From Scytolyngbya sp. HA4215-MV1 (GTDB taxonomy: Bacteria > Cyanobacteriota > Cyanobacteriia > Leptolyngbyales > Leptolyngbyaceae): a DNA stretch of 64,000 nt. The notes below the pieces were generated by a model that saw only the letters and a list, made by a program, of their open reading frames with translations, was not told where the DNA came from and did not search any database. Below are positions 16,101-19,100 of the stretch, one piece after another. The translations under genes were made by a program, and so were the position numbers. The stretch spans positions 331,408-395,407 of the forward strand of contig JAHHIA010000006.1 in the NCBI GenBank assembly GCA_019359045.1, given 5' to 3'. Positions within the stretch are counted from its first letter, which is position 1. Every line of letters starts with the position of its first letter.

Positions 16101-19100
16101 ATCGGCATGTTGACCAAAACTGAAGCCATCTACAGTCAGCTCCAGGCTCTGATCGTCTCCCACCCCAGTCAGCCTGAAAACCCACCCCCCTTCACCGCAG
16201 GTCAAATCCTCAATTTTGCTACCACTGATTGCCAGGAGATTTTAAGCGCACACCAACTCATTAGTGTGGAACAAATCTCAATGTCAGAATGGCATAATCA
16301 TCCGTTTTGCACCCAGTTTGGCTTAGAAGCCTATCTAGGTGCTCCAGTGCAGGTCAATCAACAAGTCTACGGCACGCTTAGTTTTTGTAGCTTCCAATCC
16401 CGTAGCAGTTCGTTTACTGCGGCAGACAAAGAATTTCTCAAACTGACAGCTCAGTGGGTCGGGAGTGAACTGGAGCGGCAACAGGCAGCCGAAACCCTGG
16501 AACGACAAAACCTGCGGGCACAACTGTTTGCCACCATCACATTGCGAATCCGTCAATCGCTCAATCTAGCCGAAATTCTCAATACCACGGCTGCTGAGGT
16601 GCGCCATTTACTGCAAGCCGATCGGGTGTTGATCTATCAATTTTCTTCCGACTGGAGCGGCACTGTTGTGGTTGAGTCGGTTGAGCCGGGCTGGACTGCG
16701 GTGCTAGGTATGGAGATTGTAGACACCTGCTTCCAATCAGGACATTGGCAACAATATCAGCAAGGCAAAATTTGGTATGTCAACAATCTTGAACAAGCCA
16801 CTCTTGCCCCTTGCCATCAACGATTGCTCACCCAATTTCAGGCTAAAGCCTCTCTGGTCATTCCAATTTTGCAAAGCCACCAATTGTGGGGATTACTGAT
16901 AGTGCATCAGTGTGCTACCCCCCGACAATGGCAGCCATTTGAAATTGATCTCCTCAGCCAATTAGCAAACCAGGTCGGGATTGCGATCGCCCAAGCGCGA
17001 CTCCTCACCCAAGAAACCCAGCAACGCGAACAACTTACTCAACAAAACTTAGCACTCGAACAAGCCCGCAAAGAAGCCGAAAAAGCCTCTCAAATGAAGA
17101 GCACCTTTTTGGCAACCATGAGCCATGAAATCCGCACCCCTATGAACGCCGTCCTCGGCATGACCGGGCTGCTCTTAGACGCCGACCTGACTCCTGAACA
17201 ACGAGATTTTGTCGAAACCATTCGTATCAGTGGAGACAACCTACTCACCCTGATTAACCAAATTCTAGACTTCTCCAAACTCGAGGCAGGGGAAATGGAA
17301 TTGGAAATTTTGGACTTTGATTTAAGCACTTGTATCGAAGAAATTGCCGATTTGCTGGCAGCAACCGCCCATGCCAAAGGCTTAGAACTGGCAACTCTGA
17401 TCTATCGCAATGTGCCTCTGCGACTCCGGGGAGATGTCAGTCGCTTGCGGCAAATTTTGACCAATTTGGTGAGCAACGCGATTAAGTTTACGGAAGCCGG
17501 CGAGGTCGTGATTCGGGCAGTCTTGACAGACGAAACAGAAACGACGACGACAATCACTTTTTCGGTCACCGATACTGGCATTGGCATCGCCCCTGAAGCC
17601 CAGGCAGGTTTATTTCAACCCTTTTTCCAAATTGACGCTTCAACCACACGCAAATATGGCGGCACCGGACTGGGATTGGCAATTTCCCGGCAGTTGGTTG
17701 AACTCATGGGCGGCAAAATTGGATTGGAAAGTACCCAAGGGCAGGGCACCCGATTTTGGTTTACCATCACGTTCCAAAAACAACTGAGCCAGGTTGCCCC
17801 GATCTCGACCACGACTACGATCGCCACTCTCTTACCCGGACTCAGACTGCTGGTCGTGGATGACAATGCTACCAACCGCAAAATTTTGAACTACCAGGCA
17901 ACCTCCTGGAACCTGGAAGTGGAAGAAGCCGATGGTGCAGAAACGGCTCTAGAAGCACTGCGGCAGAGCATTGCGGCGGGCAAACCCTTTGATCTCGCTA
18001 TTCTGGACATGCAAATGCCCCAAATCGATGGCGAAACGCTTGGTAAACAAATCAAAGCCGATCCCGCTCTGGCACAAACAAAATTGATTATGATGACCTC
18101 ACTGAACCAGGCGGGGGAAGCTAGACGAATGCTAGAAATTGGCTTTTCTGCATACCTGGTGAAGCCCGTTAAACAGTCCCGGTTACTCAATTGCATCGTT
18201 AATACAGTGACGATCGCCCCTCCCGGTCAGAGTACGATGCCTGTACCAAGCACTCAAGGACTACGTGAACCATCCGATTGCCATAACCCTGAAGGAAGTA
18301 GCAAAGTAGATCCAGTAGGGTTGCCTATTTCTAACGCGAATTCGTCTATTCGTAAGGGCATCAAATTAAAAATTCTGCTCGTTGAAGATAACGTCATCAA
18401 TCAAAAGGTCACACTCAATCAACTCAAGAAGCTAGGTTATGAAGCCGATATTGCTGCGAATGGGCAAGAAGCACTTTTTATGATGAAAAAAATTAATTAC
18501 GACATTGTATTAATGGATTGCCAAATGCCGATTATGGATGGCTACGATACGACTCGATCGATTCGTCAAATTGAGGGGAGCGATCGCCATACCTGTATCA
18601 TTGCATTAACTGCAAATGCAATGAAAGAAGACCGAGAACAATGTATTCGTGCAGGAATGGATGATTATTTAAGCAAGCCCATCCTCAAAGAGCAACTTGC
18701 AGCCACATTAGAACGATGGAGCCAGACAATGAACGCTGCATCTAAACCAGGTTCTAATTCCCCTATTTCAATGTATCCACAAGATTCCGCATCGAACACA
18801 CCGATTCATTGGCAACATCTACATCAAATTTCAGACAATAATGAAGAGTTTGAACTTGAGTTGCTTCAAGTTTTTATTGTGGATACCCAAACCCACTTAG
18901 CTGCCCTCAAGCTTGCGATCGAGCAGCAAAACCTCAAGCAAATTGAGCAACAAGCCCACCATATCAAAGGTGCTAGTGCCAATGTGGGCGCCAGTGTACT
19001 TCTCAAACTTGCAACTCAGTTAGAAGACCAGGCACGCCAAAAACAACTGAAAAATGAGCAAATCCTGCTTCAGGATTTAGAAACTGGATTAGCCCAAATC

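Follow-up and report, generated by a model that had tools for sequence, protein, structure and literature searches.

A probable DXCF-type cyanobacteriochrome hybrid kinase and its candidate partner-switch neighbours in Scytolyngbya sp. HA4215-MV1

Architecture of the hybrid kinase locus

We analyzed a 64,000-nucleotide window of contig JAHHIA010000006.1 (C10 in our numbering) of the cyanobacterium Scytolyngbya sp. HA4215-MV1, in which a large hybrid histidine kinase is followed by a HATPase gene and by a response regulator gene with a phosphatase output (Table 1). An earlier sequence-only reading had given the kinase ORF as 1996 aa, and this length was borne out. Pfam searches assigned three GAF stretches, HisKA, HATPase, two REC, and Hpt domains to the ORF, and NCBIfam TIGR00229 assigned six PAS stretches. 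Because these assignments agree with it, the earlier domain count (six PAS units, two GAFs besides GAF3, two REC, and one Hpt) is correct. By our own reading of the sequence, GAF3 appears to be the only one of the three GAFs with a bilin motif, and it is the last sensor ahead of HisKA. The residues needed for phosphotransfer, namely H1327, the G box (GTGLGL at 1506), D1621, D1791, and H1939, are all present, which supports the proposal of a phosphorelay in one chain. Elsewhere in the window, a 2342-codon ORF is located at 40077-47105.

Table 1. Features of the kinase locus (window coordinates)
Feature	Position	Strand	Basis or content
Hybrid histidine kinase, 1996 aa	13146..19136	+	GAF1, six PAS, GAF2, GAF3 (DXCF), HisKA, HATPase, REC, REC, Hpt
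GAF3, residues 1119-1296, assigned as DXCF-type cyanobacteriochrome domain	16500..17033	+	PDB sequence match, predicted fold, tree
DTCF motif, D1193-F1196, second Cys1195	16722..16733	+	Sequence; alignment; kept in related loci
Canonical Cys1223-His1224	16812..16817	+	Sequence; alignment; kept in related loci
60-residue stretch 1267-1326, GAF3 to HisKA His1327	16944..17123	+	Length in loci; helix in model to 1296 (model end)
HisKA (His1327) and HATPase_c kinase core	17094..17774	+	Pfam; HEIRTP at 1327, GTGLGL at 1506
Two REC domains, Asp1621 and Asp1791	17847..18710 (first bound approximate)	+	Pfam, residues
Hpt domain, His1939	18858..19106	+	Pfam, residue
HATPase_c_2 protein, RsbW-like	19223..19663	-	PF13581 79.6 bits; RsbW 6m36 E 2.5e-6
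Response regulator with SpoIIE/PP2C phosphatase output	19857..20993	+	PF00072 97.2 bits, PF07228 137.9 bits

GAF3 as a DXCF-type cyanobacteriochrome domain

The DTCF motif with Cys1195 and the PCH motif with Cys1223 that the sequence-only reading had placed in the third GAF were both found (D1193-T-C1195-F1196 and P-C1223-H1224), with the Cys codons at 16728-16730 and 16812-16814, respectively. Thus, GAF3 has an Asp-Xaa-Cys-Phe motif 28 residues before a canonical Cys, which is followed by His, one of the two residues (His or Tyr) expected there. The 28-residue spacing given for TePixJ was also right, because the same number of residues was counted in the 3vv4 sequence from the Cys of DPCF to that of the CH motif. 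The strand described as a mark of bilin-binding GAFs, RVLIYQFSSDWSG, lies at residues 1160-1172. WXDXXL, given as the motif of the red/green XRG cyanobacteriochromes in a passage of PMC11284453, is absent from GAF3, which has I1191-V-D1193-T-C-F1196 in its place.

In a PDB sequence search, the closest solved sequence was 6oap (E 1.8e-47, 164 bits), and TePixJ 3vv4 (E 5.7e-33, 117 bits) and AnPixJ 3w2z (116 bits) were also matched; the chain names were taken from Foldseek matches and from part of PMC11284453. The predicted GAF3 model (pLDDT 88.8) has the bilin-GAF fold, which does not distinguish subtypes, and its best Foldseek match was again 6oap, with structures of miRFP670nano, TePixJ, and AnPixJ also among the matches. 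The 6oap GAF comes from a dual sensor histidine kinase and is therefore, like GAF3, part of a kinase, but its motif is DQYF and it lacks the second Cys. GAF3 shares with the TePixJ GAF (3vv4, 4fof, and 4glq) the DXCF and CH motifs, their spacing, a GTVVxES strand, and membership of a 48-row clade described below, while the outputs differ: a hybrid kinase for GAF3 and a methyl-accepting chemotaxis protein, as 3vv4 is named, for TePixJ.

An alignment of the kind that the sequence-only reading had proposed as a check on the bilin pocket showed that the pocket residues D1193, C1195, F1196, Y1204, C1223, and H1224 are present, so that the outcome named there as counting against a bilin-binding GAF, a lack of such residues, did not arise. 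For comparison with a wider set, the best 120 of 1666 homologous proteins and the query yielded 632 GAF matches, of which 492 aligned over at least 120 residues were kept. The canonical Cys was found in 389 of the 492, and 188 of these 389 also had the second Cys; therefore, the state with both Cys is common, not universal. Among the 389 GAFs, D1193 was matched in 97%, Y1204 in 94%, and H1224 in 68% (with Tyr at this position in 28%), and F1196 was matched in 89% of the 188 GAFs with both Cys.

Some residues near the motif differ from those in TePixJ. H498 and W499 of TePixJ, which bind the B-ring propionate according to a passage of PMC6955287, are in register with G1199 and H1200 of GAF3, which has a Trp at 1201 instead; furthermore, R507 and an Asp of TePixJ correspond to K1208 and N1214. 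The latter position is mostly Asp, and 15 of the best 80 of 502 confirmed related loci have Asn there. The G-x-W arrangement (G1199 and W1201) is common to close relatives. In an alignment (A1) of 20 chosen rows including 19 of 25 relatives (L050, L052, L055, L056, L059, and L063 were left out), D1193, C1195, and C1223 did not vary and G1199 and W1201 hardly did, which gives the signature DxCFxxGxW.

We next considered the color and the pigment. In part of PMC5240096, a strand Phe and a helix Phe are together credited with a blue shift of red/green and teal photoproducts. By our own mapping, the position of that strand Phe is Val1174 in GAF3, as in TePixJ, and therefore a photoproduct that is green or of longer wavelength would be expected rather than a teal one; a literature search on tuning residues returned nothing. 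Section 6 of PMC5240096 describes that insert-Cys GAFs given the DXCF motif did not show a normal photocycle, so that this motif alone is not proof of one. Covalent bilin attachment and a photocycle are thus predictions for GAF3. As for pigment supply, the genome has a single bilin reductase match, PcyA (NCBIfam equivalog phycocyanobilin:ferredoxin oxidoreductase, 325 bits against a cut-off of 206), and two heme oxygenase matches in Pfam, neither of which had an NCBIfam match at 1e-10.

Conservation of the two Cys was examined in two sets. The best 80 of 502 related loci were located by the peptide patterns FLxQLA[DN]QV and WGLLIAHQ, neither of which includes the Cys motifs; the canonical Cys was present in 80/80 and both Cys in 78/80. 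The other set consisted of 30 loci (L034-L063), from which L034 (the window itself) and L057, L058, L060, and L061 (no GAF3 match at the cut-off) were set aside. Both Cys were kept in 22 of the remaining 25 GAF3-bearing relatives, the losses being of both in L050, of the second in L055, and of the canonical one in L056. A tree was then built from 19 of the 25 relatives, 27 loci from the best 80 of 502, 28 randomly chosen homologue GAFs, GAF3-like stretches of at least 145 residues from the same genome, and seven PDB references. Nine rows with long branches were removed from a first tree of 107 rows, leaving the place of the window GAF3 unchanged, and the four DXCF motif columns were masked in the final tree of 98 rows. 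GAF3 fell in a 24-row clade (support 99/96) with the second Cys in 23 rows, nested in the 48-row clade that includes TePixJ (support 98/88; second Cys in 43). The three red/green references were in a separate 17-row clade (support 100/99) with the second Cys in none. GAF3 thus groups with DXCF GAFs including TePixJ, apart from XRG GAFs. The second-Cys state changed at least six times on this tree. The possibility that GAF3 regained its second Cys within the red/green lineage was dropped, as GAF3 lacks WXDXXL and is not in the clade that includes the XRG references.

The genome contains 54 matches to GAF3, and GAF3 is therefore one of many such sensors there. In an aligned subset of these stretches, DPCF, DHCF, DTCF, DTYL, and EEVF were among the motifs seen. 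A paralogous kinase at G000:C17:24721-28632 (L005) is 45% identical over residues 687-1981, and its GAF has DICF and CH motifs. Taking the alignment, the PDB sequence match, the predicted fold, and the tree position with TePixJ together, the identification of GAF3 as a DXCF-type cyanobacteriochrome made in the sequence-only reading is supported, and our confidence in it is high.

The segment between GAF3 and the kinase core was compared by its length from the Glu of the conserved WxxxE to the HisKA His, using a pattern that matched 48 of 109 scanned loci, with some genomes represented twice and the other 61 loci unmatched. Of the 48 loci, 44 have a length of 60 residues, three of 53, and one of 67. 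These steps of exactly seven fit with a coiled coil.

Candidate partner-switch genes near the kinase and their recurrence

The HATPase_c_2 protein reached 36 bits in NCBIfam, against cut-offs of 145 and 155 for RsbW equivalogs. In the REC-SpoIIE protein, the match to PF07228 is nearly full length, and GGD at 171, DVSGHG at 191, SDG at 316, and EDD at 367 are present, which we take to be the phosphatase metal-binding motifs. Its best solved relative is the Pseudomonas REC-PP2C protein RssB (3eq2/3f7a; 3f7a is so named in part of PMC9430166), in which a REC domain is likewise joined to a SpoIIE-like phosphatase, but the 139 bits of the window protein are far under the NCBIfam RssB cut-off of 700. 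STAS domains were found at nine places in the genome, none of them on contig C10. A paralogous triad of STAS, REC-SpoIIE, and HATPase_c_2 genes lies side by side on contig C17 (G000:C17:199490-203062; L194, 5491-9063), with a REC-SpoIIE 64% identical to that of the window and a gene with a ChrR cupin-like domain following the three; a scan of seven ORFs at this place detected no histidine kinase. This triad supports the view that the window pair is part of a partner switch. The triad is located downstream of genes for a DUF3131 protein and a cellulose-synthase-like glycosyltransferase.

Among the best 80 of 502 related loci, 11 (L064, L065, L067-L073, L130, and L131) have a REC-SpoIIE relative (>250 bits) no more than about 4 kb from the kinase. 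Seven of the 11 have the gene order and strands of the window (L064, L065, L068, L070, L072, L130, and L131). A HATPase was found in nine; the HATPase/REC-SpoIIE pair is upstream of the kinase in L069 and 3.5 kb away in L073, and no HATPase was found near the kinase and REC-SpoIIE genes in L067 and L071. Within the same 80 loci, REC-SpoIIE lies near 11 of 21 kinases with an Hpt domain and near 0 of 59 without one; in other words, Hpt is present in 11/11 linked and 10/69 unlinked kinases (Fisher P 3e-8, or 4e-8 for loci with at least 2 kb downstream, both uncorrected for shared descent). Besides members of the DTCF group, the linked kinases include L130 and L131, which are of the DPCF type; the 38 remaining DPCF loci of this set (40 in total) gave no Hpt match. 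In L130, from Calothrix membranacea, the same three genes are found, and the kinase combines a CHASE3 domain with a DPCF GAF.

The 25 relative genomes with a GAF3 kinase overlap with these 80 loci (G003, G008, G016, G028, and G032 are L072, L066, L069, L071, and L067, respectively), so that the two sets of counts are not additive. REC-SpoIIE is adjacent to the kinase in seven genomes (G003, G011, G019, G022, G028, G032, and G051) and near it in two (G005 and G016); hence the linkage is patchy, at 9/25. In G012 the genes are at contig ends, neither linked nor unlinked by coordinates. REC-SpoIIE is on the same contig and far off in eight genomes (G006, G021, G025, G029, G033, G038, G048, and G055), on another contig in five (G008, G015, G023, G050, and G056), and without a match at E 1e-80 in two (G004 and G018). 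In addition, G013 (L190) has the same HATPase_c_2 and REC-SpoIIE pair after a PAS-input kinase with no GAF, and in G051 (L050) the related kinase beside REC-SpoIIE has a GAF without either Cys (DPSF and AY). Because of these two cases, the light input looks exchangeable. The recurring neighbors suggest where the signal may leave the kinase chain.

Proposed signaling route and its alternatives

We consider it probable that GAF3 is a DXCF photosensor gating a His-Asp-His phosphorelay, with the neighboring REC-SpoIIE as the likely target. Phycocyanobilin would be attached covalently through Cys1223, and Cys1195 would add to C10 of the bilin in a blue-absorbing dark state, as described for DXCF domains. 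Photoisomerization would then release Cys1195, giving a likely green form, or a yellow-orange one if the pigment stays phycocyanobilin. The GAF3 helix is likely continuous to HisKA, and the change may be passed on as a coiled-coil movement, as suggested by a stretch that varies only in sevens where measured. Phosphate would move from His1327 to Asp1621 and/or Asp1791 and on to His1939, from which the Hpt domain would phosphorylate Asp52 of REC-SpoIIE. The latter would remove phosphate from an anti-anti-sigma (STAS) protein whose gene lies elsewhere, in opposition to the RsbW-like HATPase.

The output is the step with the most serious competing explanation. GAF3 might gate the kinase as a DXCF photosensor with the Hpt domain serving another response regulator, the neighboring REC-SpoIIE and HATPase not being the output. 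The eight relative genomes with the two genes far apart on one contig, the 10 of 21 Hpt-bearing loci that are unlinked among the best 80 of 502, and the REC-SpoIIE of G013, whose neighboring kinase lacks this GAF, agree with this explanation. Nevertheless, related kinases from several genera have the phosphatase nearby, among the same 80 loci only those with Hpt, and we regard a different output as rather unlikely; if GAF3 is indeed a DXCF cyanobacteriochrome, an exit through REC-SpoIIE is moderately favored.

The remaining alternatives concern GAF3 itself. That it binds bilin by Cys1223 alone, with a non-cycling Cys1195, and senses another color as a single-Cys photosensor would fit with the pocket differences from TePixJ and with the DXCF GAF AM1_6305g1, which needs no second Cys for PCB-to-PVB isomerization according to a passage of PMC11284453. 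Retention of the second Cys in 23 of 24 clade members argues against it, making it improbable in our estimate. Still less likely, in fact very unlikely, is that GAF3 no longer binds bilin and persists as a relic or a protein-protein domain: N1214, K1208, the shifted Trp, and the loss of both Cys in L050 of the same set could be so explained, but GAF3 has both Cys, H1224, D1193, and Y1204, and Asn at 1214 is shared by the 15 loci noted above. An ordinary GAF with Cys matched by chance, with which the bare GAF label of Pfam would agree, was dropped as hardly credible in view of PDB cyanobacteriochrome matches down to E 1.8e-47, the Cys conservation, the Foldseek matches, and the tree position.

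Beyond the preferred route from GAF3 through the phosphorelay to REC-SpoIIE, we tentatively propose a wider reading. A blue/green photosensor may act through a one-chain phosphorelay on REC-SpoIIE, which would oppose an RsbW-like kinase; light color would then set sigma-factor availability through partner switching, and the input module may be exchangeable, being swapped or lost in some lineages while the switch stays. For HsbR-HsbA, part of PMC6482189 describes a partner switch that involves an anti-sigma factor antagonist; compared with RssB and HsbR-HsbA, the locus here differs in its predicted input, a light-sensing hybrid kinase, and in having no STAS match on its contig. HltA, another cyanobacterial SpoIIE phosphatase, has been placed speculatively in a light-linked partner switch, but it has its own GAF, as stated in part of PMC9430166, whereas the REC domain here would receive its signal from a kinase on another chain. 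Among the papers listed in our literature searches, none linked a cyanobacteriochrome kinase to a REC-SpoIIE partner switch, and one search gave the HltA paper alone; a further search, which covered a small share of its matches, rules out little. The recurrence of a light kinase near partner-switch genes is new to us.

To our knowledge, many cyanobacteriochrome kinases have no known output. The phosphatase recurring near Hpt-bearing kinases, usually with the HATPase, offers a direct candidate route from light color to sigma factors, and the stretch that varies in steps of seven provides a well-defined setting in which to measure the control of a kinase by a bilin GAF. In the window, as in several relatives, a phosphatase is encoded near the kinase, usually with the ATPase gene between them, and light would likely control gene switching via this phosphatase.
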